A stretch of 64,000 nucleotides of DNA from Mycobacterium sp. Root265 (GTDB lineage Bacteria > Actinomycetota > Actinomycetes > Mycobacteriales > Mycobacteriaceae), in the NCBI RefSeq assembly GCF_001428895.1, contig NZ_LMJA01000031.1:315975-379974 (forward strand), read 5' to 3'. A program made the position numbers and the translations under genes. Positions 17,448 to 61,719 of the stretch are shown here, piece by piece. Numbering within the stretch: the stretch's first letter is position 1; each line of letters opens with the position of its first letter. The notes beneath the pieces were generated by a model. The model was not told where the DNA came from. It saw only the letters and a list, made by a program, of their open reading frames with translations, and did no database searches.

Positions 17448-17463
17448 ACTTTACATGTACAGT
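17448..17463. promoter_or_regulatory. Regulon palindrome, site 1 (LLM / CAP divergent promoter)
   Basis: ACTTTACATGTACAGT matches the consensus ACTATACATGTATAGT at 14 of 16 positions. It lies between the LLM gene (start 17420) and the CAP-domain gene (start 17516), so it can serve both directions. Confidence 0.8.
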
Positions 17464-17515
17464 TCGATTTGCTGTAAAGAATCGGTCGAAACCCTCTGCG
17501 TGACTAGGTGACGAG

Positions 17516-18043
17516 ATGCGCTATCCATCAGACATATACCTGCATGCCGCGCGGCGTCCTGCTAACGCGGCCGCCCTGGCCGCCCTGGCCGCCGCAGTAG
17601 CGCCCTTGTTGCCCGTCGCACCAACGGCCCATGCCGATAATCGGCGACTCAACGAGAGCGTGTTCGTCAATATCTTCACCGCGCAGCACCGCAATGGATG
17701 CAGGACCGACACTCGACTTGATCCGCGCCTGGTAGAAGCGGCACAACGTCACACGTTCGATGTCCGTGACCACCGAAACATAAACGGCAGCATCGGCTCC
17801 GACGGAAGCACCACACAGGACCGAGCCCTCGCCGCCGGCTTCGCGGGATCGGTCGCGGAGACAGTTGCGATTAATCCCGCGCTGGCGATCAGCGGCGTCG
17901 AGATACTTAATCAGTGGTGGCACAACCCGGTCAGTCGAGCGATCATGCAGGACTGTAGTCATGATGCTGTCGGAGTCTGGTCGGAGAACAGTCTCGACCG
18001 CACCGTGGTCGTCGCTGTCTACGGCAGCAGCGCGGTCCAATGA
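17516..18043 (+). CDS. Secreted CAP-domain (SCP/PR1-like) protein
   Basis: A 175-aa protein with a long signal peptide (alanine-rich core, cleavage near AHA-DN at residue ~41) and a CAP fold. Visible features are HRNGCRTDTRLDPRLVEAAQRH, then AETVAIN and a C-terminal CSHDAVGVWSENSLDRTVVVAVYG. CAP proteins in other groups bind sterols and lipids, which fits a place beside a lipid importer, but that role is inferred here. Its stop overlaps the start of the DUF732 gene (ATGA), so the two are translated together. Palindrome site 1 lies 53 bp upstream. Confidence 0.85.
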   Translation: MRYPSDIYLHAARRPANAAALAALAAAVAPLLPVAPTAHADNRRLNESVFVNIFTAQHRNGCRTDTRLDPRLVEAAQRHTFDVRDHRNINGSIGSDGSTTQDRALAAGFAGSVAETVAINPALAISGVEILNQWWHNPVSRAIMQDCSHDAVGVWSENSLDRTVVVAVYGSSAVQ

Positions 18044-18396
18044 GCGTCACGCGGAGGGTGTCGCTGTCCGCGCTGATCGCCGGATGCGGCATTGCAACAA
18101 GCATGGTGCTCAGTACACCGACAGCATTGGCCGACGAGGTCGCCTATCTGGTCAATGTGACTGTGCGACCGGGTTACAACTTCGCGAACGCAGAAGCTGC
18201 ACTGGCCTATGGCCGTTCGATATGCGGACGGGTCCGCAACGGACTGGCCTACCCTGAACTCATCTCGACCGTCAAGCACGACTTCGCCACCAACGACAGT
18301 TACCAGGCGTCCTACCTGATATCTCAGTCTGCTCAGGAGCTCTGCCCCGACGTCATCTGGCAGCTCAGGCATTCGGCCGCCGGATTTCGGGGCTGA
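18040..18396 (+). CDS. Secreted DUF732 protein
   Basis: A 118-aa exported protein: signal peptide to about residue 31 (TALA-DE), then a DUF732-type domain of ~80 residues with two conserved cysteines (SICGRV and ELCPDV) that could form a disulfide. DUF732 is typical of mycobacteria and has no known function. It is translationally coupled to the CAP protein and convergent with the last mce-associated gene, 6 bp away. Both exported proteins sit under the same palindrome as the esterase unit, an unusual set beside an mce operon. Confidence 0.85.
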   Translation: MSVTRRVSLSALIAGCGIATSMVLSTPTALADEVAYLVNVTVRPGYNFANAEAALAYGRSICGRVRNGLAYPELISTVKHDFATNDSYQASYLISQSAQELCPDVIWQLRHSAAGFRG

Positions 18397-18402
18397 GGCG
18401 GT

Positions 18403-18972
18403 CTACACGGGGTCGAAACCGGAGACCAACCACTTGCCGTCGACGTGGTCCATCGTGACGCGCACGCTGGATGTGCTGGCGGTGGGAGGGTCATCACCGA
18501 CAATCAGGGTCTGATTGACAAAGACCAAGACCACGGCGCGGTTCGGGGTTGCCGACACCGATGCTGCGGCGGGCACACTCGCTTCGGCTGAAACGCCCTT
18601 GTCTCTGGCACCCGGTATCACGACGTCTTTGGTGAGCGAGCGGTAGGAGTCGCGGAATGCGCCGGTCAGCTTGGATTCAGCTTCGGTCAAGTCTTGTTCT
18701 ACGGTGTCCGGCTGGTACGACAGGATCGCCACAGCGGCCTCGGAGGCCGCAGCGAACGAGCTTTGCGCAGCTGACCCGGACGATTCCAGCGACCATTGCT
18801 GCCAGCGCAGATAACCAAGGCCACCAGCGGCGCCGACGATCAGCACCGCAAGCGCGCCATAGGTCAAAAATTTCCGTCCCACACGACTCCGCGGTTGCGG
18901 CGCTGTCGCGGATTCTGCTGGTGACGGTGTCGACTCTACGATGTCTGTTTTAGGTGTGCTGATTTCGGTCAC
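18403..18972 (-). CDS. Mce-associated membrane protein (second)
   Basis: A 189-aa Mas-type protein: short cytosolic N-terminus, one transmembrane helix (FLTYGALAVLIVGAAGGLGYLRW, about residues 36-58) and an extracytoplasmic domain ending in a cystatin/NTF2-like strand pattern (VRVTMDHVDGKWLVSGFDPV). Mas proteins are thought to stabilise Mce transport complexes. The GTG at 18972 was chosen because GGAG lies 6 nt upstream; a longer in-frame ATG at 19077 would overlap the previous gene. It is the last gene of the ten-gene yrbE-mce operon. Confidence 0.85.
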   Translation of the reverse strand: MTEISTPKTDIVESTPSPAESATAPQPRSRVGRKFLTYGALAVLIVGAAGGLGYLRWQQWSLESSGSAAQSSFAAASEAAVAILSYQPDTVEQDLTEAESKLTGAFRDSYRSLTKDVVIPGARDKGVSAEASVPAAASVSATPNRAVVLVFVNQTLIVGDDPPTASTSSVRVTMDHVDGKWLVSGFDPV

Positions 18973-19001
18973 GTTGGCTCCATTTGCCCGACGGGGATTG
19001 A

Positions 19002-19619
19002 TTACGGGACGAACTGCACATTGGACACCTTGGCTTCCTGCCCTGGTGGCTGTGTCACGGTGATACGCATCCGCCACGCCCGGGGCTGTGCCTCTTCGGC
19101 TCCGGCGAGCGACGTTTGGACCGCTACTGCCACGAGTACGTCCGCGGACTCGCCGTCCTGAGATTCCAGGCCGGCTTCGGTCACCGTACCCACGGATTTC
19201 GACTGCGATTCAGCTACGGCAGCGACGAATTCTCCTGCACGCTTCTCAAAGTCATCATGGAAGTCGCCGACGCTACCCGTGAGGATCCTCTCGATGTCGG
19301 CATTGACGGTCGTGTGGTCGATGGTCGTGAGGTTGAGCGCAGTTTGTCGCCCGACGTCCACCAGCATCTGCCGGTGTTGGACGGCACGACGCTCTTCGGA
19401 AACGTTGTTGAACATCCACACTCCGGCGCCCGCGAGCCCAGCCAGTACGACCAGCATCAACAGCAAGGCGATCCGCGCGATGGGTCGCGACTTCTTCAAA
19501 GTGGGGACCTCGTCAGTCGCGCGGGGGTCGGCGCTGGTGTTCTGCTCGACCGGCTGGTCGGAAATATCATCGCCGGTCAGCTCTACGGGCTGGCCGGGGG
19601 TGTCAGCATCGATTGCCAT
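19002..19619 (-). CDS. Mce-associated membrane protein (first)
   Basis: A 205-aa protein with an acidic cytosolic N-terminus, one transmembrane segment (IALLLMLVVLAGLAGAGVWMF, about 51-71) and a periplasm-side helical/strand domain ending VTQPPGQEAKVSNVQFVP, the Mas pattern. Its start overlaps the end of mceF by 37 bp, which argues for tight coupling. It probably forms part of, or steadies, the Mce transporter together with the next gene. Confidence 0.88.
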   Translation of the reverse strand: MAIDADTPGQPVELTGDDISDQPVEQNTSADPRATDEVPTLKKSRPIARIALLLMLVVLAGLAGAGVWMFNNVSEERRAVQHRQMLVDVGRQTALNLTTIDHTTVNADIERILTGSVGDFHDDFEKRAGEFVAAVAESQSKSVGTVTEAGLESQDGESADVLVAVAVQTSLAGAEEAQPRAWRMRITVTQPPGQEAKVSNVQFVP

Positions 19620-21031
19620 GTCTTGTCTTTCGGGGCGGTGTGGGCGAGGTCGGCTTGTGTGTAGAGCTTGCCGTCAGGTCCGAGATAACTGCCGGTGGCT
19701 GGGTCATACTCGGCAACGGCTACCGGTGGCAGGGGCTGCGCCGCGGGAACCATCGGAGTGTTTTCCGGGAGTTGCGGAACACCTTGACCGGACAGGGTGG
19801 CGTTGGGATCGCCTTTCCAGTTGTATCCGTCGTTGAGCGGAACGTACGGTTGGTCGCTTTCGCACATCTTCACCGTGGGTGCTCGCTTGCCGGGGACGGT
19901 CAGGCACGGCAGGTTGCGCGCACCACGCACGTTGCGGTCTGCGTCCTGCGGAATCCGGCAGTAAATGTCACCGGCCGGACGCTCGGGCGAGTCCACTGAG
20001 GCCGGTGTGCGCATTTGTTGGGCAGGAAGGAAACCGGTCGCGCACGTTGTCGGATTGTTCAAGTTCAGGTTGAAGCTCAGGAATGCGCCCTTGAAGTCCT
20101 GCTTGGTGCCGAGGTTGGCGATGACGCCGGCCTGAAGCGCAGCCACGCCCTGCGGAAGCAGAACGAGCAGCTGCTCCACCGCAGGCTGATACGTCACGGC
20201 AATCTGACCGAGACTGACCAGATTGGACAACAGCACCGGCACGGTTGGCTGTATACGGTCGATGAGCTGTTGCGCCTCCGCGGCCGCGGGACCACCGTTG
20301 GTCAGGATGCCCGAAACGGCTGAATCGCTCGTACGCAGTTCGTCGGTGACGGTGGCGACGTGGCTGGCCCACGCATCAATGGAGTCGGCGGTGTCGGCTT
20401 GGGAATCCAAAACAGGTTGGGCTTGTTCGATGAGGGCCGTAAGCGAGTCGAGATTTGCCTGAGCATCGATCGCGAGGGTGGTCGACCCTCGGACAAACCG
20501 AGCGATTTCGGCTCCGAGTCCGCCTATCGCGGTATGGGATTCGTCGATAACGGTCTGCAGATTCTCGCGCGGTATGGCCTGCAGGCCGGTGTTCGTGGCA
20601 TCCAGCAGGGCATTGATGTCCGGCGGGACCGTCGCGTCGGCCGCCGGGATGAGGGCGCCGTCAGCCAGCGACGGTCCATCGCCGCTTCGGGGTAGCAGGG
20701 CAACATACTGCTCACCGACCGCGGACTGGCTGTGCACCTCTGCCCGGACATCGGCAGGAATGGCGACACCCGAGTTGAGCGACAGCCTGGCGACGACACC
20801 AGTGGGCGTCAGGTCCACCGATTGGACGCGGCCGACTTCAGTACCCCGGTAGGTGACGTTAGCGTTCTTGTATAGACCGCCTGTCTCCGGCAACTGCAGT
20901 GTCACCGTGTAGCGACCCACGCCGAACAATTGTGCGGGCAACTTCATGTAGCCGAAGATCATGACCCCGGCGAAGATTATTGCGACGACGGTGAACACGG
21001 CCAACTGCACCTTGACGCGACGAGTGAGCAT
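19583..21031 (-). CDS. mceF: Mce-family protein F
   Basis: A 482-aa Mce protein. It has an N-terminal transmembrane anchor (VQLAVFTVVAIIFAGVMIFGYM), then the MCE/MlaD domain (TVTLQLPETGGLYKNANVTYRG to about residue 115), a long helical stalk and a C-terminal Pro-rich tail. Six Mce subunits are thought to build a tunnel carrying lipids across the envelope to the YrbE permease. It follows mceE after 1 bp. Position and MCE-domain form (GGLYKNANVTYRGTEVG) identify it as the F-type subunit. Confidence 0.93.
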   Translation of the reverse strand: MLTRRVKVQLAVFTVVAIIFAGVMIFGYMKLPAQLFGVGRYTVTLQLPETGGLYKNANVTYRGTEVGRVQSVDLTPTGVVARLSLNSGVAIPADVRAEVHSQSAVGEQYVALLPRSGDGPSLADGALIPAADATVPPDINALLDATNTGLQAIPRENLQTVIDESHTAIGGLGAEIARFVRGSTTLAIDAQANLDSLTALIEQAQPVLDSQADTADSIDAWASHVATVTDELRTSDSAVSGILTNGGPAAAEAQQLIDRIQPTVPVLLSNLVSLGQIAVTYQPAVEQLLVLLPQGVAALQAGVIANLGTKQDFKGAFLSFNLNLNNPTTCATGFLPAQQMRTPASVDSPERPAGDIYCRIPQDADRNVRGARNLPCLTVPGKRAPTVKMCESDQPYVPLNDGYNWKGDPNATLSGQGVPQLPENTPMVPAAQPLPPVAVAEYDPATGSYLGPDGKLYTQADLAHTAPKDKTWQSMLTPPASP

Positions 21032-21032
21032 G

Positions 21033-22166
21033 TCACGGCCCCTGATTCAGGTTGTAGGGAACGGTCAGCGGATTTCCCGATGTGTATGGGCTGGGGATCT
21101 GTCCGATGGTGCGTCCCCACTGCAATTCGAGGCGGGTTAGCGCACCCTCGAACCGAGTGCCGGTCAGGAATGAATTATCGAGCCGACTCAGTGTGAGATC
21201 GACGATCGCGGTGAGGTTTCCGGTGTCGCCGCGGATCCATTTCTCGATCGTTTCGTTCGGGAATGGGTAGGTGGTGATCATGCTCAACGACTTGGTCATC
21301 GCGGGCCCCGCGTTGGCAAGTGACTGCAGCACCGGACCGAGGTTCTTTAGATTCTGGACCAGCGATTCCTTGGTCTGATGTGCTGCATCGGCGGCCAGGG
21401 CGCTGAATTGTCCGATCTGAACGAGTGCTTCGGACAGGTTATTCCGTTGCTCGCTCAGCACTGCCAGTGCGTCTGGCAGTGTGCGCAGAGCTTCGTCGAC
21501 GACCGTCTTATTCTCAGCAAATGTCCCGACGAGTCCGTTGAGACTTTCTGTCGCAGCGATGATGTCGTCGGTCTGGGAATTGGTGTTGGCGATGAAGATG
21601 TCCAGCTGGTTGATGAGGTCGCGTAGGTCCTGTTCGCGGCCGGCGAAGGCTGTGGCGAATGCCGTGGTGATGTCCTGAATCTGCCCGATCCCGCCGCCGT
21701 TGAGCAGCATCGACACCGTGGCCAGGGTCTGCTCGGTGGTCGGGTAGGCGCCTGCACGTTCGAGGGGGATCAGCGATCCATCGTGCAGCTTTCCTTCCGG
21801 TGGGAGATCAACTGGGGGCGCCAATTCGATGTGCAGCGACCCCAGAAGGCTTGTCTGACCAACCTTTGCCGTCGCGTTGGCGGGTAGGACGACATTCGGG
21901 TCGAGTTGCATGGTGACCAGAGCGTGCCAGCCTTGCGGCTGGATGGCGGTCACACTGCCCACCGTCACGTCACCGACACGAACCCGCGAATTACGTTGAA
22001 TATTGGTTACATCCGGCAGCTGTGCCTGCACGCTGTAGGACCCCGGCCCCTTGCCGGCGGTGCCGGGCAGAGGCAGCGAGTTCACGCCCTGCCATTCGCA
22101 GCCGGCCAGCACTGCACAGGCTGCTGCCGCGGCGGCGACGACACGCACACGATGCGAGCCGGTCAT
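21033..22166 (-). CDS. mceE: Mce-family lipoprotein E (LprK-like)
   Basis: A 377-aa Mce subunit and the only lipoprotein of the set: signal peptide with lipobox LAGC, lipidated cysteine C23. The MCE domain follows (SYSVQAQLPDVTNIQRNSRVRVGDVTVG), then a helical region and a C-terminal GNPLTVPYNLNQGP. It overlaps the mceD stop by 4 bp. Lipidation would anchor this subunit at the outer face of the plasma membrane, part of the lipid-conducting complex. Confidence 0.94.
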   Translation of the reverse strand: MTGSHRVRVVAAAAAACAVLAGCEWQGVNSLPLPGTAGKGPGSYSVQAQLPDVTNIQRNSRVRVGDVTVGSVTAIQPQGWHALVTMQLDPNVVLPANATAKVGQTSLLGSLHIELAPPVDLPPEGKLHDGSLIPLERAGAYPTTEQTLATVSMLLNGGGIGQIQDITTAFATAFAGREQDLRDLINQLDIFIANTNSQTDDIIAATESLNGLVGTFAENKTVVDEALRTLPDALAVLSEQRNNLSEALVQIGQFSALAADAAHQTKESLVQNLKNLGPVLQSLANAGPAMTKSLSMITTYPFPNETIEKWIRGDTGNLTAIVDLTLSRLDNSFLTGTRFEGALTRLELQWGRTIGQIPSPYTSGNPLTVPYNLNQGP

Positions 22167-23533
22167 GAGCCGGCCACCGGGGGCACCATGAGTCCGGGCA
22201 GACCGGCACTGGGCGTGGTCGCGATCGGGTCGGGCGGTAGCAGCGGCGGCACGTCGGCGGGGTGCGCTTCAGCAGCCAGAGCGGGCCCGCTCGACGATGC
22301 AGGCGGACCGGCCGCGTCCGGTGGGGTCGGCGCCTGTGCCGGTGCAGGCGCCGGCGGTGGTGGCACGTAATCGGGGCGCATCCACTCTTCGCTATAGGTG
22401 ACCTCGTTGGGTCGCGTCTGTGCGCCAACGATGGGGTTGAGGCCGATCGGTGGGAAATTGAACATCCGGTTCTTGACGATCGGCGAAAGGTACTGGACGC
22501 AGAGCTTGGCTGATTGCTCGGCATTGAGCCGAGAAGCGGCTTGTATTGCGCCGCAGAGGAAACCGACTGGGTTGGAGAAGTTCTGTGCTGCCAGCACCCC
22601 GGTGAATGTTGCCTGGGCTGGTTGGTAGATGTTGACGAAGTTGCTGATCGAGGTCGGGGTGACGTGCAGGGTCTGCTTGATGTCGTCGCGACTGTCGTTG
22701 AGTGCCTGCGTGATAGATGCCAGTTTGTCGGTGGTGATGCCCACCGTTTCTCGGTTGTCGGCGACGAAGGTTTGTACCTGACCGACTACGGTATTGAGGT
22801 CTTCTGCTGCTGTCGACACCTCGGTCGGGTCGTTGGCGAGCACGCCGGTGACCGCGGCGAGATTCCGGTTCAATTGTGCCATCAGATCTGCACTCCCCTG
22901 TAGGCCCGACACCAGCGTGGACAGGTTGCGCACCGTGGAGAAGATATCTGTCGAATGATCGCCAAGCGCGGAGAACGCTTGCGAAAGCTTCACCAAGGTG
23001 TCGCGGATGTTGGCGCCCTCTCCGCGCAGGTTGTCTGCGGCCGTGTCGATGAACGCTCCCAGCGTGCTGACCCCCCCGGGTTCGGCGGGTTGCAACGTCT
23101 CGGTGAGGCGCTCCAGCTGGGCTCGGAAGTCGTCCCACTCCACCGGCACGGCGGTGCGCTCTTGGGGAATGACCGCGTCGTCTTGCATGGTCGATCCGCC
23201 GGTATAGGCGGGGGTGAGTTCGAGCGCCCGGGATGTCACCAGGTTCGGCGACAGGATGACGGCTTTGGCCTCGGCGGGCACCTTGTACTGCCTACCGAAA
23301 TAGAACGTGATCTTGACCCTGTCAGGTTCGGGTTCGATGCGTTCGATCTCGCCGACAGGAATTCCCAGAATCCGCACCTCGTCACCGGTGAAGATTCCGT
23401 TGCTGTTCGCGAAGTAGGCAGTGACCGTGGTCCGGGTGAAACGATTTGTTGCACCCAATGCGTACACCAGTCCGCTTAAGACCAGTACAACCAGCGTGAA
23501 CGCCAGGCCGATGCGGAGTCGGCTTACGGTCAT
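22163..23533 (-). CDS. mceD: Mce-family protein D
   Basis: A 456-aa subunit. TM anchor near residues 7-27 (GLAFTLVVLVLSGLVYAL), MCE domain (VTAYFANSNGIFTGDEVRILG, IPVGEIERIEPEPDRVKITF), helical needle region and a long Pro/Ala-rich tail. The ATG at 23533 overlaps the mceC stop (ATGA); the longer ORF reading from 23722 is inside mceC and rejected. Part of the six-subunit lipid import tunnel. Confidence 0.94.
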   Translation of the reverse strand: MTVSRLRIGLAFTLVVLVLSGLVYALGATNRFTRTTVTAYFANSNGIFTGDEVRILGIPVGEIERIEPEPDRVKITFYFGRQYKVPAEAKAVILSPNLVTSRALELTPAYTGGSTMQDDAVIPQERTAVPVEWDDFRAQLERLTETLQPAEPGGVSTLGAFIDTAADNLRGEGANIRDTLVKLSQAFSALGDHSTDIFSTVRNLSTLVSGLQGSADLMAQLNRNLAAVTGVLANDPTEVSTAAEDLNTVVGQVQTFVADNRETVGITTDKLASITQALNDSRDDIKQTLHVTPTSISNFVNIYQPAQATFTGVLAAQNFSNPVGFLCGAIQAASRLNAEQSAKLCVQYLSPIVKNRMFNFPPIGLNPIVGAQTRPNEVTYSEEWMRPDYVPPPPAPAPAQAPTPPDAAGPPASSSGPALAAEAHPADVPPLLPPDPIATTPSAGLPGLMVPPVAGS

Positions 23534-24867
23534 GGGAGAGGTCCCATCTGTTGCGGTGAGGGCTCGCCCGGCGCCTGCTGGAAGATCGGCGGATAGAGAG
23601 GAATTTCTGCCGTACCCGGCGCCGGCGGACCCGGGGGCGGCCCGCCGGGGGCAGGTGCGGGCAGTGGCTTGCGGTAGGGATAGCAGCCCGGTCCGGGGGT
23701 GGGCGCCCCTGGCGCTCCGCATGCTTGGTCTCCAGCGTTACCGGTGATGGCATCAGGCACGGTCAAGCGTGGTTCACCACCTTGGCCCGTCCGCGGGAAC
23801 GGGGCGGGCAGGGCCGGAGTACCGGGCTGTCCGACTTGGGGATCGACGAGTTGCGAGGGCAGCAACACATTGGGGTCCAGACCCAGATCGGAGAAGGCAG
23901 CGTCGACAAAAGGCTGCACAAACTGCCCGGGCAGAAGGTTCGAGATGTAGGCGTTGAAGAATGGCCCTGAGGACACCGACTCCCCCAATGACATCGAATA
24001 GGCGTTCAGCCGGACGATCGATTCCTGGACTTTGCCTTTGCGGTCATCGACGATCGTCAGAACGCCGTTGAGTTTCTCCAGGGCGGGTTTGAGCGTCTCG
24101 TTGTTGTCCTCGATGAACCCGCCGAGTTCGCGACTTGCCGCAGAGATGTTGCGGGATATGGCGTCCAGGGAAGCGCTCTGATTGCGCAGCTCGGCCAATA
24201 AGGCGTTGGTCGCTGACACCAATGTCACGATCTGGTCGGTACGTTCGCGCAGAACAGTCGTAGCTTTCCGGGCATTTTCGAGCAGGCTACGCAGCTGGGC
24301 GTCGCGTTTGTTGAGTGTGTCGGCGAACCGTGCCGCTCCCTGAATCGCGATCTTCAGATCGGGCGGCGTCTGGGCAAAAGTCTGGGCGATCGTGTCTAGG
24401 GACTGAGACACTTGACCGGTGTCCAATCCGCTGATCGTCTCGGTCAGGTCACCGAGTGCCTCCGGCAGCTGATACGGCGATGTCGTGCGCGTCAGCGGAA
24501 TCGGCCCAGCGATCGAGGAGTCTCCACGCGGGATGACTTCCAGCACTTTTGAACCCAGCAGGGTCTTGGTCTTGATGGCCGCTTCCGTTCGGTCACCGAG
24601 CGGAATCGATTCATCTACGGTGAAGGTGACGAGCACCTGCGCGCCGTCGAGTTGAAGTCCGGTCACTTCACCGACGCGATACCCGCCGACCTGTACCGCC
24701 GCCCCGGAGGTCAGGCCCCCGGCTTGGGCGAAGAACGCTTCGTAGGTCTCACCAGAGTTGAAGAACGGCAGCTTCTTGTATTGCAGCGCGCCGAGGACCA
24801 GTGCGATGGCGATGACGACGCCGACGGCACCGACGATGTAGGGGTTACGTTCGGAGAAACGTTTCAT
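23530..24867 (-). CDS. mceC: Mce-family protein C
   Basis: A 445-aa subunit. It starts MKRFSERNPYIVGAVGVVIAIALVLG, the usual MceC anchor, then an MCE domain (YEAFFAQAGGLTSGAAVQVGG), a helical stalk and a Pro/Gly-rich end. The ATG at 24867 overlaps the mceB stop by 4 bp, deciding the start over the ATG five residues upstream. Same complex as its neighbours. Confidence 0.94.
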   Translation of the reverse strand: MKRFSERNPYIVGAVGVVIAIALVLGALQYKKLPFFNSGETYEAFFAQAGGLTSGAAVQVGGYRVGEVTGLQLDGAQVLVTFTVDESIPLGDRTEAAIKTKTLLGSKVLEVIPRGDSSIAGPIPLTRTTSPYQLPEALGDLTETISGLDTGQVSQSLDTIAQTFAQTPPDLKIAIQGAARFADTLNKRDAQLRSLLENARKATTVLRERTDQIVTLVSATNALLAELRNQSASLDAISRNISAASRELGGFIEDNNETLKPALEKLNGVLTIVDDRKGKVQESIVRLNAYSMSLGESVSSGPFFNAYISNLLPGQFVQPFVDAAFSDLGLDPNVLLPSQLVDPQVGQPGTPALPAPFPRTGQGGEPRLTVPDAITGNAGDQACGAPGAPTPGPGCYPYRKPLPAPAPGGPPPGPPAPGTAEIPLYPPIFQQAPGEPSPQQMGPLP

Positions 24868-25898
24868 GGTTTCGGTGCGCACCGTCCTGACGACTGTCCG
24901 GCCGCCTTGACGTAAACCGGCTGTCCGCCTTTGCCATTGAGTTTGAGAATGACATCACACAGATAGAAGCTGAAGAAGTCGCCGTAGAGTCCCTGGCGGC
25001 CCAACGCGCGGTACTTGTCGGGCAGTGTGTCCAGGAGGTTGGCGAGGTACTCGTGGTCGGTGAGCGCCTGTGCGGCCACCCGGTCGGTTTGGTTCACCAC
25101 CATGTTCAGCGGGGGCCGCGCCTCGGATAGCAGATCGGCGATGGTGCCGGCGGCGTCGTTGGCGTATGCCACGGTATTGCTGATATCTCCCCGTCGATCC
25201 GACAGGGCCGTCACCAATTCCGACAGCGAGCGGACACCCTTATCGAACTGGGTGTTTTGATCTCCCAACGATGTCAGCACTGTGTTGAGGTTGGTGATCA
25301 CCTGGCCGATCAGTTCGTCACGGTCAGCAAGAGTGTTGGTCAACGTCGATGTCTGGCTCAAGAAGGAACTGATGGTGGTTCCCTGGCCTTGCAGTGCCTG
25401 GATCAACTGGCCGCTCAGCGCGTTGACCTGATCGGGATCCAGTGCGCGAAACAGAGGCCGGAACCCTCCGATGAGGGCGTCCAGGTCAAGTGCGGAGTCG
25501 GTGCGCGCCAGCGGGATCGTCTGACCGGGCTGTAGCTGACGTACGCTGCCTGCACCTTCCTCTACTGCCAGATAGCGGTCGCCGATCAGATTGTCGTAGC
25601 GCACCGCGGCGCGGGTGCCCTCGGTCAAACTTACCGCTGCGGGGTCAACGCTGAATTCGACCAGAACGACTGCATTCGGCTGCACCGCAATTGATTTGAC
25701 CTTACCCACTTCGACGCCGGCCATGCGAACAAAGTCGCCGTCTTTGAGGCCTGAGACGTTGTTGAATTCGGCGCGGAAGGTGTTCTCTTCGTTGAAGCGT
25801 AGTTGTGCGAACACTGCGAGCAGACCGACCAAGCCCAGAACGCACACCACGACGAAGACGATGAGTCTCCAGATTGCTCCTGCGAGATTGTCTTTCAC
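24864..25898 (-). CDS. mceB: Mce-family protein B
   Basis: A 344-aa subunit with a GTG start at 25898 preceded by AGAGGTGG. TM anchor (LIVFVVVCVLGLVGLLAVFAQL), MCE domain (FRAEFNNVSGLKDGDFVRMAG, VEVGKVKSIAV), helical stalk and a C-terminal FFSFYLCDVILKLNGKGG, the conserved MceB end. It lacks the Pro-rich tail of its neighbours, as is usual for B. It lies 31 bp after mceA. Confidence 0.94.
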   Translation of the reverse strand: MKDNLAGAIWRLIVFVVVCVLGLVGLLAVFAQLRFNEENTFRAEFNNVSGLKDGDFVRMAGVEVGKVKSIAVQPNAVVLVEFSVDPAAVSLTEGTRAAVRYDNLIGDRYLAVEEGAGSVRQLQPGQTIPLARTDSALDLDALIGGFRPLFRALDPDQVNALSGQLIQALQGQGTTISSFLSQTSTLTNTLADRDELIGQVITNLNTVLTSLGDQNTQFDKGVRSLSELVTALSDRRGDISNTVAYANDAAGTIADLLSEARPPLNMVVNQTDRVAAQALTDHEYLANLLDTLPDKYRALGRQGLYGDFFSFYLCDVILKLNGKGGQPVYVKAAGQSSGRCAPKP

Positions 25899-25929
25899 TG
25901 TGCCACCTCTTTTCGGGCTGGTGTGGTCG

Positions 25930-27309: not shown

Positions 27310-27315
27310 CGTTGG

Positions 27316-28937: not shown

Positions 28938-28992
28938 TCGGATGTTCTCCTGCCTGTCGGGCGACCGTGTCAGTGACGGCACGCACACCACA

Positions 28993-29027
28993 GCTTTACA
29001 TGTAAGGCAGAACTATACACGGTAAGC
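28993..29027. promoter_or_regulatory. Regulon palindrome, site 2 (mce operon promoter, two variants)
   Basis: GCTTTACATGTAAGGC at 28993-29008 keeps the TTTACATGTAA core. A weaker second copy, ACTATACACGGTAAGC, lies at 29012-29027, 19 bp further (centre to centre). Both are upstream of yrbEA (start 28937). The left half of the second copy matches the consensus exactly. Confidence 0.65.
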
Positions 29028-50333: not shown

Positions 50334-50345
50334 GGAAGCCACTCC

Positions 50346-53810: not shown

Positions 53811-53869
53811 TGCTGCCTCCGTATCGCGGTGGGCCACGCTGAGTGCGGTCCGCATAGATGTCATTTTCA

Positions 53870-53885
53870 ACTATACATGTATAGC
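53870..53885. promoter_or_regulatory. Regulon palindrome, site 7
   Basis: ACTATACATGTATAGC, 15 of 16 to consensus. It lies close to the amidohydrolase start (53810) and on the left side of the divergent gap. Confidence 0.88.
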
Positions 53886-53967: not shown

Positions 53968-53983
53968 AGCTTTACATGTATAG
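53968..53983. promoter_or_regulatory. Regulon palindrome, site 8
   Basis: GCTTTACATGTATAGT, 14 of 16 to consensus, 58 bp upstream of the ACAD start at 54041. With site 7 it gives each divergent promoter its own copy. Confidence 0.85.
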
Positions 53984-54040
53984 TGACCTTGTCATGGCTC
54001 CAGTTGAGTCCCCCAGTTCCCCACCAAGGACGGTGAGCGC

Positions 54041-55339
54041 ATGCCCGACTCGGCCGCACAGCTCGGACCCGATACCAGCAGCCCGCAGGCTTTCACTGAA
54101 TCGGCCCACCGGTTCCTGTCTGCCCACGCCGAACGCACTCATGACCAGGGTGTGACCTGGGGTTCGGGCAGCGACCGCGTGTCCTATTTCGCCTCAGGCA
54201 CCGCAGAACAGGAGCACGAGGCCGTGCAGGCCGCGCGTCGCTGGCAGGGCCTGCGATACGGGCACGGCTGGGGCTGGATCACGGGCCCACAGCAGTACGG
54301 CGGTCTGGGACTCTCGGTGGCCTACCAACTGCTGTATCAGCGCGCTGAAGAGGAATACGTAGTCCCTGATACCAGCCAGCTGTCGGTTGTCGGCCTCGGG
54401 ATGGTCGGCCCTACTGTGCTGGCGCACGGCCAGCAGGAACTCCGAGATGCGCTGCTGCCGCGGATGTACCGGGGCGAGGCGGTCGCCTGCCAGCTCTTTA
54501 GCGAGCCGGCCGCAGGATCGGATCTTGCCGGCGTGCAATCGCGCGCCGTCCGGGACGGCGACAACTGGATCATCAATGGCCAAAAAGTATGGACCTCGGC
54601 AGCCCAGCATTCCGATGTCGGCGAAATTCTGTGCCGCACCGACCTGGATGCCCCCAAGCACAAAGGCCTGACAGCCTTCATGATCGACATGAAGGCGCCC
54701 GGAGTGGAGATCCGACCGCTGCGGCAGATGACCGGTGGCAGCGAATTCAACGAAGTCTTCCTCACCGATGTGCGAGTGCCCGACGGCAACCGGCTGGGCG
54801 AGGTAGACGGCGGGTGGGCGGTTGCTCTGACGACGCTAACCGCAGAGCGCGATGTGGTGGCGGGCGTGGACTCGCCGGAAGTGGCGCGCGCACTGACATC
54901 CGAACATCTCTCGGCGCTGATGCGAGCGACCTACACATGGGATGACCGTTCTCTACGCCGGCAACTCGCTGCACTACTGGCCGAGGCGCGGGCGGTGGAG
55001 AGCCTCAATGCCATGGCCGCTCGGAAGATCGAGGCCGGCCAGCCCGTCGGCCCTGAGCGCTCGGTAGCCAAACTCGTGCACGCACGCAACATCACTCGCG
55101 CAGCACATTTCGTCTCCGAGGTACTGGGTCCGCGGATCATCGCCGACAGTGGACAATGGGGCACCTTTGCGTGGTCAGACCTGTTGCTGGCCTCTCCGGC
55201 GTTACGCATTCTCGGTGGCACCGAAGAAATCATGAAGAACATCTTGGGCGAGCAAGTCCTCGGCTTGCCCAAAGAGCCGGCCGCCACGATCAAGACAACG
55301 CCAACCCAACCCCCCGCTGCCAAGGGAGCACAGCTGTGA
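54041..55339 (+). CDS. Acyl-CoA dehydrogenase (pair B, first)
   Basis: A 432-aa acyl-CoA dehydrogenase: ITGPQQYGGLGLSVAYQLLYQ, CQLFSEPAAGSDLAGVQSRA, NGQKVWTSAAQHSDVGEILCRT, PLRQMTGGSEFNEVFLTDVRVP and RILGGTEEIMKNILGEQVLGLPK. Full length with a Pro-rich tail. It overlaps the next ACAD start (GTGA), so they form a coupled pair, probably a heterotetramer. The first step of a beta-oxidation round on a bulky acyl-CoA is likely. Confidence 0.9.
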   Translation: MPDSAAQLGPDTSSPQAFTESAHRFLSAHAERTHDQGVTWGSGSDRVSYFASGTAEQEHEAVQAARRWQGLRYGHGWGWITGPQQYGGLGLSVAYQLLYQRAEEEYVVPDTSQLSVVGLGMVGPTVLAHGQQELRDALLPRMYRGEAVACQLFSEPAAGSDLAGVQSRAVRDGDNWIINGQKVWTSAAQHSDVGEILCRTDLDAPKHKGLTAFMIDMKAPGVEIRPLRQMTGGSEFNEVFLTDVRVPDGNRLGEVDGGWAVALTTLTAERDVVAGVDSPEVARALTSEHLSALMRATYTWDDRSLRRQLAALLAEARAVESLNAMAARKIEAGQPVGPERSVAKLVHARNITRAAHFVSEVLGPRIIADSGQWGTFAWSDLLLASPALRILGGTEEIMKNILGEQVLGLPKEPAATIKTTPTQPPAAKGAQL

Positions 55340-56442
55340 CCGCGACCCAAGCCGAACTCGACGAACTGCGCGCCGCGATCCGCAAGTATCTGCAGAGCCG
55401 CCTGCCGGAGACCGAGTTAATCAACGTTGCCGACGGCAAGCCGCTGGGCGTTGATTTGTTCCGTGACATGAACGATGCGTTAGGTCTTCACAGTTTGGTC
55501 ATTCCCGAAAAGTTCGGCGGCGACGGTGCTGGCCTGCCGGTGCTGGCAGTGGTTTTCGAGGAGTTGGCGCGTGCGGTAGCGCCTGTCCCCTACTTCTCCA
55601 GCTTCGCGGCGATTCAGGCCCTGCTGCTGTCCGGCGACGAAGAGCAATGCCAGGAATTGCTTCCGCGCTTTGCCGAAGGCAAAAGCCGCCCCACCATTGC
55701 CATCGCCGAGCGCGACGGTTCCTGGGATGCAGCGGTCATCAGTACCCGCGCGGTCCAGACAGAGAATTCGTGGTCGTTGAGCGGGACCAAAAACTGGGTG
55801 CCCGATGCACATGGTGCGGAGGTGTTGCTGGTCCTGGCCCGCACGACCGCAGGTCCGACGCTGTTCCGGATCGACCCACGCGCTATAGGCGTGACCGTCG
55901 AACCGATGCGTGTCCTCGACGAAACCCGCCCCCTGTACACCGTCACACTCACCGATGCCGACGCCCAACTCGTCGGCCGCGAGGGTGCTGGAGGCCATCT
56001 ACTGTCGCAGCTGCTCGATGTCACCGTGCTGGCGCTGTGCGCCGAACAGGTGGGTCTCGCGCAACGATGCCTGGAGATCAGCGTGGACTACGCCAAGGTG
56101 CGCACGCAGTTCGGGCGCCCGATCGGCAGCTTCCAGGCCGTCAAACACCTGTGCGCGGAAATTCTCACCCATGTCGAGATGGCCCGCGCCGCAACAGAGG
56201 ACGCCATCCACAGCGCCGACGAACACTCGGATAGGGCCTCCGCTGATGCGGCGGCGGCGCATCTAACGTGCAGTGCGGCCGCGATGTTCGCGGCCAAGGA
56301 GACCATCCAGGTGCTCGGCGGCATCGGATTCACCTGGGACCACCCCGCCCATGTGTACTTCCGCCGAGCAGCATCATCGCAGCTGCTGCTCGGCGGGCCT
56401 GCCGTCAGCCATGAGCGTCTGCTGGACCGCTTGGGCATCTAG
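55336..56442 (+). CDS. Acyl-CoA dehydrogenase (pair B, second)
   Basis: A 368-aa acyl-CoA-dehydrogenase-like protein with GTG start at 55336 in GTGA overlap with the previous gene (AGGGAG upstream). GLHSLVIPEKFGGDGAGLPVLAVVFEELARAVAPVPYF, AERDGSWDAAVIS in place of the usual TEPxAGSD flavin loop, QFGRPIGSFQAVKHLCAEI and QVLGGIGFTWDHPAHVYFRRA. The altered flavin region fits the non- or half-catalytic partner of a two-gene FadE heterotetramer. Convergent with the hydrolase gene, 32 bp away. Confidence 0.88.
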   Translation: MTATQAELDELRAAIRKYLQSRLPETELINVADGKPLGVDLFRDMNDALGLHSLVIPEKFGGDGAGLPVLAVVFEELARAVAPVPYFSSFAAIQALLLSGDEEQCQELLPRFAEGKSRPTIAIAERDGSWDAAVISTRAVQTENSWSLSGTKNWVPDAHGAEVLLVLARTTAGPTLFRIDPRAIGVTVEPMRVLDETRPLYTVTLTDADAQLVGREGAGGHLLSQLLDVTVLALCAEQVGLAQRCLEISVDYAKVRTQFGRPIGSFQAVKHLCAEILTHVEMARAATEDAIHSADEHSDRASADAAAAHLTCSAAAMFAAKETIQVLGGIGFTWDHPAHVYFRRAASSQLLLGGPAVSHERLLDRLGI

Positions 56443-57633: not shown

Positions 57634-57649
57634 CCTATACGCGTATGGT
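57634..57649. promoter_or_regulatory. Regulon palindrome, site 9 (variant, hydrolase / TetR promoter)
   Basis: CCTATACGCGTATGGT, 12 of 16 to consensus with CG instead of AT at the centre. It lies between the hydrolase (start 57575) and the TetR gene (start 57688). A weaker site at the regulator's own promoter is a common autoregulation layout. Confidence 0.7.
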
Positions 57650-57687: not shown

Positions 57688-58362
57688 GTGGCCAAGCGAC
57701 GTAGTGCCGTCGAACGGGTTCCGCTGACGCGGGAGCTCATCTCATCGGTCGCCGCCGATCTGATCAAGGCGGAAGGCATCGAGGCCCTTACCATGCGCAC
57801 AGTCGCCGCCAAACTCGGCGTCTCGGCCATGGCGCTCTACCATCATGTCGCCGACAAAGACGAAATCGTGCGCCTGGTCGGCGACGACATCCTGGCCCAT
57901 ATCGAGCTTCCCGATCCTGAATCCGGCGACTGGCGCGACCTGCTCACCCAGGTGGTTCACGCCACGCACGAGGCACTGCTCAGCGTGCCGGGAATGACCT
58001 CTGTGTTGTTGACGCGCACCCTGCTGCCTCATGCGCGTCGGCTGCTGTTCTTCTGCATCGGCCAATTCGAACGTGCCGGCCTCAGCGCCGAAGAGGCCAA
58101 ACTGGCCTACGCAGGATTGCACCAACTCAGCATCGGACGCTTGATGGTCGAGTCGAGCTCCAACTTCGACATCCACACCCGTTTGCCCGACGACGATGAC
58201 CTCCTGGTCTACATGGACGCACTGCACAGCCGAGCCTCCTTCCATTCAGCGCTGGCGGGGCTGCTCGACCATTACGCGCCCGCGCCGCCCCCCAAGCGGA
58301 CCGCTCCGCGAAAATCGTTGGCTACACCGCGGAAAGCACCGGCAAAGCGGACCAAGCGCTGA
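57688..58362 (+). CDS. TetR-family regulator, candidate master regulator of the cluster
   Basis: A 224-aa TetR protein: HTH at about residues 35-57 (TMRTVAAKLGVSAMALYHHV), a C-terminal ligand domain and a Lys/Arg-rich tail (PKRTAPRKS...PAKRTKR) that may help bind DNA. It is the only regulator within the catabolic cluster, and a variant of the cluster palindrome lies in its promoter. It is therefore the most likely protein to bind the shared operators, probably as a repressor released by a pathway acyl-CoA. That link is inferred from position only. Confidence 0.9.
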   Translation: MAKRRSAVERVPLTRELISSVAADLIKAEGIEALTMRTVAAKLGVSAMALYHHVADKDEIVRLVGDDILAHIELPDPESGDWRDLLTQVVHATHEALLSVPGMTSVLLTRTLLPHARRLLFFCIGQFERAGLSAEEAKLAYAGLHQLSIGRLMVESSSNFDIHTRLPDDDDLLVYMDALHSRASFHSALAGLLDHYAPAPPPKRTAPRKSLATPRKAPAKRTKR

Positions 58363-58366
58363 TCGA

Positions 58367-58382
58367 ACTATACATGTAAAGC
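58367..58382. promoter_or_regulatory. Regulon palindrome, site 10 (ferredoxin-P450 promoter)
   Basis: ACTATACATGTAAAGC, 14 of 16 to consensus. It lies 21 bp upstream of the ferredoxin ATG. A TAGCAT -10-like hexamer at 58392-58397 is only 6 bp from the ATG, so the transcript may be leaderless and the operator would cover the promoter's upstream part. Confidence 0.85.
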
Positions 58383-58403: not shown

Positions 58404-58598
58404 ATGCGCTTGGAGATCGACCTGACCGCGTGCGTGGGGCACGGCCGTTGCTACGCCGAAGCACCGAACGTAATAGACGCCGACGACGAGGGACGCGCCA
58501 TAGCGCTGCTCACTGAGGTACCTGATCAGTGGCACACCGAAGCACGCTTGGCGGCTGACAGCTGCCCAGAGCAGGCTATCCACCTCCACGAGTCCTGA
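58404..58598 (+). CDS. Ferredoxin of the P450 type (single cluster)
   Basis: A 64-aa ferredoxin with C10-VGHGR-C16 and a later SCPEQAI: the C-x2-H/G-x2-C...CP pattern of [3Fe-4S]-type ferredoxins that feed bacterial P450s (the second Cys of a 4Fe motif is replaced by His). It should deliver electrons to the P450 encoded next, 44 bp downstream. No ferredoxin reductase gene is seen here. Only 21 bp separate it from palindrome site 10. Confidence 0.92.
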   Translation: MRLEIDLTACVGHGRCYAEAPNVIDADDEGRAIALLTEVPDQWHTEARLAADSCPEQAIHLHES

Positions 58599-58642
58599 TG
58601 ACGGACTGTCGAGAATCTGTCCCACGTCCAAAGGAGAGCGCA

Positions 58643-59869
58643 GTGCGCACAGACATCCACGAGATCGGCATGGCCGACATGACGCCCGCGATGCGCGCGG
58701 CCATCCTCTATGAAGCCAATCCGACCTTCAGCGTCGATGATCCGCGACCCGTGTGGGACGAACTTCTGCGCGATTATCCCGTCATCAAATGGGAGATGGG
58801 CGTCGGGTTCTTCCGCGCCGATGACATCACTGCGGCCGGCCGCCATCCCGGAGTCATTTCGGTCAACCCGTACACCGGGCTCTCGATGGGCATGGGGTCA
58901 CGAGATCAGTTGATACCCCTGCACTTAACCGGCGACACCCACCTTCGCTACCGCAAGCTACTGACTCCGCTGCTGACCGCCAAACGCATGGAACCGTGGG
59001 GGGATGCGGTCCGCGAGCTCACCGATGAGTTGATCGACGGATTCATCGGCGACGGCCACGCCGAACTCTACGAGCAAGTGTGCCAGCCACTTCCGACGAA
59101 GATCTTCCTCCGCTTGTTCGGTCTGCCGCAGGATGACCGGGAAGCTCTCATCCAATTCAAGGATGACATCCTGAGCGCCACCGGCGACACGCTCGACGGT
59201 CGCGAACAGGCCGGAATCGCCGCCGGGGACCGGTTGCGTGAACACCTGTCCAAGCGGCTCGCCGAGCGCAAGAACGAACCGCACGGCGAGGATCTGATCA
59301 GTCAATTCCTGACCTTCGAGCTCGACGGACACAAACTGACCGACGATGAGATCGTGAACCTGATGCACATGTTCACCATCGCCGGTCTCGATACTGTGAC
59401 CTCGTCACTATCGGTGCAGTTCGCCTTCCTGGCCACTCATCCCGAGGAACGCCAGCGGCTGGTCGCAAACCCTTCGCTGTGGCCGACTGCCGTGGAAGAG
59501 CTGATGCGCACCGAATCCCCTGTACCACAGGGTGGTTTGCGTTGGGCTGCAGAGGATATTGAGATCAACGGCGTTGAGGTCAAGAAAGGTCACATGATCT
59601 TCCTGGGCTGGGCCAGCGCCAACATCGATCCCTCCGTGTTCGAGGATCCAATGGGTGTCGACTTGACCCGAAAACCCAACCGGCACATGTCCTTTGCTGT
59701 CGGCCTACATCGTTGCCTGGGATCGCACCTGGCGCGTCTGGAGATGGTTGCGGCGTTGAACCGATTCCATGAGCGCATTCCCTCCTACACCGTGACCGAG
59801 GGCGACCCGATCCGGTACCAAGCAATCCCCGGTATCCGCTCGGCAACCCGAATTCCGGTCAGCTTCTGA
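58643..59869 (+). CDS. Cytochrome P450 monooxygenase
   Basis: A 408-aa bacterial P450: I-helix AGLDT (D250, T251), ExxR at E286-R289, haem ligand C358 in FAVGLHRCLG. The N-terminal helices are of normal length. The GTG at 58643 has AAAGGAG 6 nt upstream and was preferred to the ATG at 58598. It would hydroxylate the pathway substrate with the preceding ferredoxin as partner; a hydroxyl placed here could be oxidised by the GMC or SDR enzymes. Substrate class is not readable. Confidence 0.95.
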   Translation: MRTDIHEIGMADMTPAMRAAILYEANPTFSVDDPRPVWDELLRDYPVIKWEMGVGFFRADDITAAGRHPGVISVNPYTGLSMGMGSRDQLIPLHLTGDTHLRYRKLLTPLLTAKRMEPWGDAVRELTDELIDGFIGDGHAELYEQVCQPLPTKIFLRLFGLPQDDREALIQFKDDILSATGDTLDGREQAGIAAGDRLREHLSKRLAERKNEPHGEDLISQFLTFELDGHKLTDDEIVNLMHMFTIAGLDTVTSSLSVQFAFLATHPEERQRLVANPSLWPTAVEELMRTESPVPQGGLRWAAEDIEINGVEVKKGHMIFLGWASANIDPSVFEDPMGVDLTRKPNRHMSFAVGLHRCLGSHLARLEMVAALNRFHERIPSYTVTEGDPIRYQAIPGIRSATRIPVSF

Positions 59870-59959
59870 TCGCATCACCTCGGAGTGGACGGCAGCTGGC
59901 CCGCCCAGCGGCTACCCCACTCTGCCCCTTCTGCAGACCGCCAATCGAGAGGCGTTCAG

Positions 59960-60070
59960 ATGGACCCGAATCCTGACTACGACATCAGCGACGAAGTGGA
60001 GTACGGCTTCAGCTGGTTTGCCTGGATTCTGCGTGGCCAGTATCCCCCGCCGGGTTATCCGCCGGCCTGA
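59960..60070 (+). CDS. Possible 36-aa small protein
   Basis: A short ORF from an ATG at 59960, 90 bp after the P450 and on the same strand, with GAGAGG upstream. The sequence starts MDPNPDYDISDEVEYGFSWF and ends in PPPGYPPA, a composition that looks made rather than random (acidic front, aromatic patch, Pro-rich end). I do not recognise it. It ends 3 bp before the stop of the convergent FadD gene. Confidence 0.4.
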   Translation: MDPNPDYDISDEVEYGFSWFAWILRGQYPPPGYPPA

Positions 60071-60073
60071 TCG

Positions 60074-61684
60074 TCAACCCTGGCCCCGGACCATCCTACG
60101 AAGATCAGCTTTGCGGACTTTGCCCGCAGCTGTGCGTGGGAAGTCGGCTACCTGGTGTCGAATCTCCTCTGGCCATTTGTATTTGGCCAGTCCGGCTGCA
60201 GTCAGCGCCCGCTGCACAGCGTCGATTCCAGGCGGCGCGTGACCGGAATTCGGTCGAATGAAGGCGCAGCCATGTTCACCGGTGCGGGGATCTGGTGCCG
60301 CAACCACTGCAGCTTCCCTCACCTCCGGCATCGCGTTGAGAATGGCTTCGACCTCGGCGGCACTGACATTCATCCCGGCACGAATGATGATGTCTTTCTT
60401 GCGGTCCATGACCACGACATGGCCGCGATCATCACGGGTGCCGATGTCGCCAGTGCGAAACCAGCCACGGTCGAAGGCCTCCTCGTTCATCGCAGGATTG
60501 AGGTAGCCACTAAACAGGTCGGGGCCGCGAGTTTGGAGCTCGCCCGGTTGCCCTGAGCTGCAGACGCGGCCACTGTCATCGACGATTCGCACGTCGACGC
60601 CGGTGTTCACGTGCCCGTCGGTGCCTGCACGTACCGACAGTTCATCCTCGACACGTCCCAGGGAGATGCTTGGGTGTTCGGTACAGCCGTAACTGCGGGT
60701 AGCCACGATGCCGCATGATTGTGCCCGCTGCACCAGGGCCGCACTTACCGTCGCGCCGCCGAGGAACGCCTGACCGATCAGTTCATGATGCTTTGGCGTG
60801 CATGACGGATCGTCGAGCAGCGTTTGCAGAAAAATGGGCGCTCCGCTGCCGGCAGTGAGGTTGTGGCGTGTAATCAGCGCCAACGCCGCGGTCGCATCCC
60901 AATAGTCCATGAGATGGATATCGCGACCGATCAGCGGTGGCACCAGCAGCGAGATCAGCATCCCCGTGACGTGACTGACCGGGGACGTGCTCAACATCGG
61001 CCGTGGCGATCCGGCCAACATCGGTGCCATGTGCAGTCTGGCCTCGGCCACCAGCGCGCGATGAGTGAGTATCACGCCCTTCGGTTCGGCGGTGCTGCCT
61101 GATGTCCAGCCGATCACCGCGGGCGCCGCCGGATCGATGCGTACCGCGCTTCGGTCAATTGCGGAGTCGACAAGCGCGTTGAAACCGAGGACGCGGGTTG
61201 AGCGCGACGGTGCTCCGACAAGGACGACGTATTCGGTGCACTGCCCCACAAGTGCGGCAAGATCGGCCGCCTCTGGGCCGTGGGCGTCGAGAATCACTGC
61301 CCGGGCTCCGCAATGCTGAACGGCGGTGAGAACCTCACGGGGTGCCATCGCGTGGCTCAGCGGCACCAGAACCACGCCAGAATGCGCGAGCCCGTAGAAC
61401 ACCGCCGCGGCTTCAATACTGTTCGGCAACTGAAAGGCCACAACCTCGCCTGGGCGCAGCCCGCGGGCTGCCAATCCTGCACCCAATCGGTGTCCGAGAT
61501 CGCGGACGTCGGACATCGACACCTGTTGCGAAGCGGCGCGGCTGTGCAGCCACATCGTGCGATTGCCGGCGCCGCCCATAGATGTGGCCAGCAGGTCGGC
61601 CAGCGATGTGTCCGTCCACCAACCTTTTCGGCGATACCGGTGGGCGAGCTGCTGGTCCGGTTCCACGATGTCGAGGTCAAACAT
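60074..61684 (-). CDS. Acyl-CoA synthetase (FadD-type)
   Basis: A 536-aa ANL ligase: P-loop WTSGSTAEPKGVILTH (Ala replaces the second Gly; lysine kept), YGCTEHPS, GYLNPAMNEEAFDRGWFRTGDIG, DRKKDIIIRAGMNVSAAEVE and A10 lysine FPRTAAGKVRKADL. Expected to activate a carboxylic acid to its CoA ester. It is divergent from the enoyl-CoA hydratase at 61752 with palindrome site 11 between. One of three complete FadD-like genes in the window. Confidence 0.91.
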   Translation of the reverse strand: MFDLDIVEPDQQLAHRYRRKGWWTDTSLADLLATSMGGAGNRTMWLHSRAASQQVSMSDVRDLGHRLGAGLAARGLRPGEVVAFQLPNSIEAAAVFYGLAHSGVVLVPLSHAMAPREVLTAVQHCGARAVILDAHGPEAADLAALVGQCTEYVVLVGAPSRSTRVLGFNALVDSAIDRSAVRIDPAAPAVIGWTSGSTAEPKGVILTHRALVAEARLHMAPMLAGSPRPMLSTSPVSHVTGMLISLLVPPLIGRDIHLMDYWDATAALALITRHNLTAGSGAPIFLQTLLDDPSCTPKHHELIGQAFLGGATVSAALVQRAQSCGIVATRSYGCTEHPSISLGRVEDELSVRAGTDGHVNTGVDVRIVDDSGRVCSSGQPGELQTRGPDLFSGYLNPAMNEEAFDRGWFRTGDIGTRDDRGHVVVMDRKKDIIIRAGMNVSAAEVEAILNAMPEVREAAVVAAPDPRTGEHGCAFIRPNSGHAPPGIDAVQRALTAAGLAKYKWPEEIRHQVADFPRTAAGKVRKADLRRMVRGQG

Positions 61685-61703
61685 GGCTGCTCCCGATCGG
61701 ATC

Positions 61704-61719
61704 GCTATACATGTAAAGT
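61704..61719. promoter_or_regulatory. Regulon palindrome, site 11
   Basis: GCTATACATGTAAAGT, 14 of 16 to consensus. It lies in the gap between the FadD gene (start 61684) and the ECH gene (start 61752). Confidence 0.85.

Follow-up and report, generated by a model that had tools for sequence, protein, structure and literature searches.

The window analyzed here is a 64,000-nucleotide stretch of the Mycobacterium sp. Root265 genome (NCBI RefSeq assembly GCF_001428895.1, contig NZ_LMJA01000031.1, positions 315,975 to 379,974 of the forward strand). It carries a gene cluster, a 16-bp palindrome (ACTATACATGTATAGT) that recurs in the gaps between the transcription units of the cluster, and a gene for a TetR-family regulator (57688..58362, +), here called TetR 57688, which is predicted to read the palindrome. 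The cluster, put at about 46 kb in an earlier note on this DNA, continues to about 70.5 kb, past the window, on an island at a tRNA-Gly gene, and comprises 51 coding sequences (CDS) between 15.5 and 70.5 kb. Pfam searches covered 49 of the 51 proteins, and NCBIfam searches covered ten. The products include MlaE permeases, MlaD/Mce proteins, coenzyme A (CoA) ligases, paired acyl-CoA dehydrogenases (ACADs), crotonases, SCP2-like thiolases with ChsH2-type partners, an aldehyde dehydrogenase (ALDH), a GMC oxidoreductase, and a ferredoxin with a cytochrome P450. The label CAP, given earlier to the protein at 17516-18043, was not confirmed by Pfam at an E value of 0.001.

Perfect copies of ACTATACATGTATAGT, the predicted operator, are located at 31005..31020, between SDR1-NMO (-) and DoxX (+); at 43516..43531, upstream of the Amh1/OB_a/thiolase_a/FadD_b/ACAD_a unit (-), in which Amh1 (PF04909) occupies 42230..43486; and at 48770..48785, between an operon of ECH2, ACAD_b, ACAD_c, thiolase_b, and the ChsH2-like OB_b (44172..48694, -; Pfam) and the ALDH and GMC oxidoreductase genes (48840..51950, +; Pfam, start by ortholog alignments). 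Copies with one or two changes are located at 17448..17463 (ACTTTACATGTACAGT), between an LLM oxidoreductase/esterase unit (-) and the 17516/DUF732 pair (+), a gap that also has sites in Mycobacterium sp. Root135; at 53870..53885 (ACTATACATGTATAGC), upstream of Amh2 (52731..53870, -; real start probably near 53823); at 53969..53984 (GCTTTACATGTATAGT), upstream of the ACAD_d/ACAD_e pair (54041..56442, +; Pfam); at 58367..58382 (ACTATACATGTAAAGC), between the TetR stop codon and the ferredoxin and cytochrome P450 genes (58404..59869, +; Pfam); and at 61704..61719 (GCTATACATGTAAAGT), between FadD_c (-) and ECH3 (+). A variant with four changes (CCTATACGCGTATGGT, 57634..57649) separates a serine hydrolase gene (-) from the TetR gene (+). 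Weaker forms stand upstream of the mce operon (28993..29027, with a second, in effect half, site at 29012), which encodes two MlaE permeases, MlaD/Mce proteins, and an accessory protein (19002..28991, -; Pfam, with the 23530-24882 protein excluded), and between the 33213 unit (-) and FadD_a (+) (34622..34661, with a second copy at 34646). One further, near-perfect site, in the gap that separates Thiol_c (-) from ACAD_f (+), is at 67344-67359, beyond the window. The three perfect and the imperfect copies thus stand as the earlier note had reported them, the sole shift being from 53968 to 53969.

The palindrome is confined to the cluster. In the window, 8 matches to ACTATACATGTATAGT with up to three mismatches were found, compared with 0.01 expected from dinucleotide shuffles of the window. 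Across the 6.67-Mb host genome, the same search returned nine matches, all inside 50 kb (C28:333422-383333), eight of them in the window and one outside it at window coordinate 67344 (C28:383318); the reversed pattern gave two. A looser pattern, RCTWTACRYGTAWAGY, with up to two mismatches gave 15 matches genome-wide, 13 within C28:333422-383333 and 2 elsewhere, with 8 for the reversed control. The random scatter that the earlier note had named as grounds for abandoning a regulon is therefore not seen. These genome-wide scans used a consensus with mismatches; a weight matrix built from nine sites of this locus was run over 114 kb around the window and returned 13 sites of at least 9 bits, all between 17448 and 67344. 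The weaker ones are 28993 (18.2 bits), 34622 (14.1), 57634 (11.3), and 29012 (11.2). Among the weak forms listed earlier, 28993, 29012, and 34622 reach 9 bits and 34646 does not, though it belongs to a stretch that is identical in M. aurum. The weaker second copies lie about 24 bp (FadD_a promoter) and about 19 bp (mce promoter) from the first, each partly conserved, and may give room for a second dimer.

All 14 sites, strong and weak, are intergenic, compared with 6.2% of the cluster (51 CDS, 15.5-70.5 kb) that is intergenic; most lie less than 60 bp from a predicted start. The earlier statement that no copy falls inside a gene thus holds on a gene list in which four CDS starts (28955, 48694, 48840, and 53823) were trimmed to ortholog alignments before the sites were placed. 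With the untrimmed longest gene forms, 48770 falls inside both OB_b and ALDH, 53870 touches Amh2, and 28993 lies 2 bases from YrbEA. The trimming is supported by Rhodococcus sp. BH4, because its ALDH is annotated to start at 26426, downstream of the BH4 site at 26332. Chance open reading frames of at least 100 amino acids overlap several sites, as is usual for GC-rich DNA.

Sites and genes were mapped in 13 genomes, that of Root265 included, and on the Rhodococcus sp. BH4 plasmid NZ_CP014942.1, giving 14 loci (genomes are designated below by G numbers and loci by L numbers). Sites recur ahead of orthologous genes in the 12 other mycobacterial genomes and on the Rhodococcus plasmid, the reverse of the lack of conservation that the earlier note had said would count against it. 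Genomes carrying related loci include M. aurum, Mycobacterium spp. AZCC_0083, Root135, and URHB0044, M. hodleri, and M. branderi. The exact motif in IUPAC code was found in 11 of 397 genus genomes (reversed pattern, 3 of 397) and, among 301 genomes drawn from the family, in the Root265 genome only (reversed control, 2 of 301). The Amh1 promoter has a site of at least 17.9 bits in all 14 TetR-bearing loci, ALDH is preceded by an operator in 9 loci, and the FadD_c/ECH3 gap holds one in 8. The mce, FadD_a, and ferredoxin-P450 promoters also have sites, partly weak ones, in the four large clusters (Root265, G317, G291, and G335). The site at the mce start scores at least 12.4 bits in all four loci whose gap was read, and its half-site is kept in Root265, G317, and G335. 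Individual variants persist as well: ACTATACACGTATAGT at the Thiol_c/ACAD_f promoter is common to four of four loci, and the TetR promoter 16-mer CCTATACGCGTATGGT is identical in four of the seven loci shown (Root265, G317, G390, and G224). Between Root265 and three relatives, identity is 90% inside the sites (445 of 496 positions) and 40% in the flanks (617 of 1,550). Sites of at least 20 bits number 60 in 15 loci, compared with a mean of 0.03 and a maximum of 1 over 100 column-permuted matrices. Three loci were located without use of the motif, BH4 by amidohydrolase DNA and G224 and G295 by TetR, and hold five, two, and one such sites, respectively.

TetR 57688 matches Pfam TetR_N (PF00440) with an E value of 1.1e-9 and 38.4 bits (cut-off, 24). 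Its AlphaFold2 model, built from 11 sequences, has a mean predicted local distance difference test score of 84.6 and an all-helical TetR-family fold, for which the best Foldseek match is ActR (E value, 2.6e-7), followed by TetR. The best NCBIfam match, to MftR2 (NF038211), reaches 87.5 bits where the cut-off is 285, so the protein is not counted as a member. The nearest solved sequences, also among the nearest folds, are the Streptomyces TetR-family repressors SimR and ActR; the similarity is low (E values of 9e-15 and 5e-14; 24 to 26% identity by Foldseek) and likens the proteins only.

Orthologs of TetR 57688 (E value of 1e-35 or better) occur in 13 of 397 genus genomes, including all 11 with the exact motif (Fisher P value of 9e-20, ignoring kinship). 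The two ortholog-bearing genomes without the exact motif, G224 and G295, have near-consensus sites of about 25 bits. Amh2 was searched in 394 genomes of the class, 23 of which have a match at an E value of 1e-90, and this supplied control loci. In three genomes from another family in which related enzymes occur (G679, G643, and G594), the 40 kb read contains neither a TetR match nor a site of at least 15 bits, and two further 20-kb regions bearing Amh2 likewise hold no site of at least 15 bits. In three genus genomes whose Amh2 homolog is 54% identical (G017, G029, and G188), both the exact motif and a TetR ortholog are lacking. The helix VSAMALYHHV, which we take to be the recognition helix, is identical in 12 of the 13 orthologs and in none of the 17 aligned among 19 distant TetR proteins fetched. 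Because of the co-occurrence and the absence of sites from the TetR-less controls, the 16-bp sequences are, as far as genome comparison can tell, very probably operators of TetR 57688; the earlier note's choice of this protein as the reader is supported by the same two results and by the conserved helix. The TetR gene is flanked on both sides by sites (57634 and 58367), as it is in G317, G291, G390, and G117. On the BH4 plasmid (L043), two TetR orthologs are encoded at 15644-16243 and 30918-31514 (53% and 51% identical); the site upstream is near consensus for one and weak for the other, and a division of labor between the two is possible.

We consider it highly likely that the palindrome is the operator through which TetR 57688 represses the flanking units. 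Several observations weigh against this. The Fisher value overstates the association, since related genomes are not independent; the difference between 90% and 40% identity is inflated, since the matrix chose the ortholog sites; and of the material behind the 60 strong sites, 12 of the 15 loci were chosen for the motif in their genome and 9 of the sites trained the matrix. A site of at least 9 bits directly before TetR is present in Root265 and in 8 of the 14 loci overall and is absent from 6 (G335, G067, G055, G159, G098, and G295). Only one strong site is found in G098 and likewise in G295, and a second Amh1-like gene of G295 has no site in the site maps. Finally, -35 support around the sites is weak.

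That weakness counts also against a different view of the palindrome, in which it is two back-to-back -10 boxes forming a compact divergent promoter instead of an operator. TATAGT can be read on each strand of the perfect 16-mer, and the majority of sites lie between divergent genes; a -35-like hexamer at a spacing of 15 to 19 bp agrees in at least five of six positions at 3 of 18 strand-sites (control, 1.5%) and in at least four of six at 6 of 18 (control, 15.9%). Promoters would be expected where TetR is missing too, but the site is absent from all 5 control loci and from all 384 genus genomes that lack a TetR ortholog, and the center TACRYGTA is invariant in all 60 strong sites, a constancy that the matrix favors by construction. 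A pure promoter is therefore very unlikely, and an operator overlapping a -10 box may make this view partly true. The site could instead be read by a regulator encoded elsewhere, with TetR 57688 merely traveling with the cluster, and linkage alone would yield co-occurrence, because TetR and the enzymes move together. We see only a slim chance of this: the Pfam scan of 49 of the 51 cluster proteins (five without any family) found no other DNA-binding regulator, related enzymes without TetR come without sites, the next best TetR match in the Root265 genome by E value shares 30% identity and differs in its recognition helix, and the TetR gene itself is bracketed by sites.

Binding by TetR 57688 with activation, or with action both ways, is conceivable, as the TetR family contains activators such as AtrA, according to the available part of PMC3511530. 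The closeness of most sites to predicted starts and the sequence shared with -10 boxes fit blocking, and the mycobacterial analogs KstR, KstR2, and BkaR are described as repressors in the accessible portions of PMC1995591, PMC3068626, and PMC3920632, so that an activating role appears quite improbable. The presence of many near-identical copies on one mobile island would also suit a small repeat element that had multiplied there and left copies without function. This we regard as next to impossible, since the flanks compared are dissimilar from one promoter to the next, all copies occupy promoter gaps, several promoters retain their own variant across species, and conservation extends to Rhodococcus. 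Repression through the operator remains the reading we prefer, and the single regulon asserted in the earlier note stands as a well-supported prediction, within which binding and repression are what we infer.

A dimer of TetR 57688 would sit on the half-sites CTWTAC and GTAWAG within the short spacers that separate the units and block the flanking, often divergent, promoters. If neighbors of the same orientation are cotranscribed, the controlled units could take in all 51 cluster genes (15.5-70.5 kb). The TetR gene would possibly control itself through the weaker variant at 57634. By analogy with KstR, KstR2, and BkaR, TetR would release the DNA after import and formation of an inducer, probably an acid of the pathway or the CoA ester of that acid, and the importer, CoA ligases, oxygenases, and beta-oxidation enzymes would then be turned on together.

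The KstR regulon includes an mce importer. It resembles the present system further in its TetR-family repressor, a 14-bp palindrome with an ACnnGT center, many sites in divergent gaps, lipid catabolism, and autoregulation (PMC1995591, available text). The KstR core TnnAACnnGTTnnA and the core here, CTWTACRYGTAWAG, share the ACnnGT center and the 14-bp span and differ in their other bases. What sets the present system apart from KstR is that it keeps to a single island in Root265 and that few genus genomes (13 of 397) have an ortholog of its TetR. KstR2 and BkaR, as far as the accessible parts of their papers go, are likewise TetR-family repressors with palindromes of 14 and 16 bp, respectively, in divergent gaps near the regulator, and govern smaller regulons of 15 genes for KstR2 (PMC3068626) and, for BkaR, 10 in M. 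smegmatis with at least 12 predicted in M. tuberculosis (PMC3920632). The KstR core, the KstR2 core AnCAAGnnCTTGnT, and the BkaR core GTTAnTnnnnAnTAAC each have no match in the window, in agreement with the earlier statement that the palindrome is not the operator of KstR or KstR2. In the open-license PubMed Central (PMC) literature, no paper on this regulon or operator turned up among the matches listed, searches with the strings TATACATGTATA and TACATGTA included; TATACATGTATA gave nothing relevant as judged by title, and TACATGTA combined with TetR and operator gave no TetR-family operator paper as judged by title and start of abstract. The type of regulator is known; the TetR regulon with this operator was not found in print in that literature.

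The cluster of about 50 genes probably breaks down a bulky lipid-like compound. Amh2 aligns with PtmU3 (PDB 6omp) over 352 residues, nearly full length, with an E value of 1e-137, and keeps the pattern DxH, H, E, DxxHxE, which is likewise present in Amh1; the ligand residues of this PF04909 pattern were taken from AibH2 and PtmU3 as given in the available text of PMC7782822. PtmU3, according to the portions available of PMC7782822 and PMC10811679, is a diiron enzyme that carries out beta-hydroxylation in diterpenoid biosynthesis and takes CoA-linked substrates; an initial idea that it is a thioesterase was dropped in view of that portion of PMC7782822. Given the PtmU3 match and the residue pattern, both of them sequence features, Amh1 and Amh2 are more likely dinuclear oxygenases than the hydrolases implied by the earlier name amidohydrolases. 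PtmU3 acts in the biosynthesis of a diterpenoid antibiotic in Streptomyces platensis (same sources, same portions); the setting of Amh2 is predicted to be catabolic, and its cluster includes an mce importer. The PtmU3 likeness is the strongest clue to the substrate, which may therefore belong to the polycyclic terpenoid acids; our confidence in the exact class is low. A steroid pathway was set aside as the only reading: ChsH2-like and SCP2-thiolase-like proteins and paired ACADs fit side-chain degradation generally, and nothing tested singles out steroids. A piperine cluster was likewise considered because one of its enzymes, PipM, belongs to the amidohydrolase superfamily too, but the part of PMC12753220 available gives no link to this cluster.

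Two further observations concern the enzymes. G679, G643, and G594 (L085-L090) represent a second cluster lineage, in which a PtmU3-like Amh2 (73 to 75% identical), ACAD_d/e, a thiolase, DoxX, and FadD_a occur together. An acyl-CoA ligase at 63590-65170 (-) straddles the window end and is therefore absent from the window's open reading frame list; it is open in one frame. Its counterpart has an upstream operator in G291 and G335, and none of at least 9 bits is found here.

The island is about 72 kb long and contains the whole cluster. The last 45 bases of a tRNA-Gly gene (5980-6024, +), its left boundary, are repeated perfectly at 77716-77760, beyond the window. A tyrosine integrase is encoded at 10038..11225 (-; Pfam PF00589, E value of 1.3e-19), and GC content at third codon positions falls from about 0.88 outside the island to about 0.72 inside. 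With a tRNA 3'-end repeat, a tyrosine integrase, and distinct composition, the region is by its sequence features a tRNA-integrated genomic island. A DUF3987 protein (12255-13769) is encoded toward the integrase end and a KAP NTPase (75104-77053) toward the opposite one; the protein at 14689-15477 has no Pfam match and looks like an HNH-type nuclease by eye only. Related clusters are located on plasmids of 864 kb in M. branderi and 704 kb in Rhodococcus sp. BH4.

A broader picture, which we offer tentatively and think rather doubtful as a whole, is a horizontally mobile module that regulates itself and degrades polycyclic acids of the diterpenoid type (ent-kaurane or ent-atisane), with a dedicated Mce importer, two dinuclear oxygenases, a P450, and paired ACADs under one new TetR operator. 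It would be common to mycobacteria and a Rhodococcus, carried on an island or on large plasmids, and would be the catabolic relative of a step in platensimycin biosynthesis, of which ent-kauranes are intermediates in the available text of PMC10391625.

The distribution of the loci suggests that the regulon and its operators have crossed from genus to genus together, carried by an island and by large plasmids. About 51 genes, a complete mce importer among them, are brought under a single predicted switch, for which there is one candidate regulator. Many mce systems have no known substrate; the one here is accompanied by its likely catabolic pathway, in which the PtmU3-like enzyme points toward terpenoid acids of a bulky kind.

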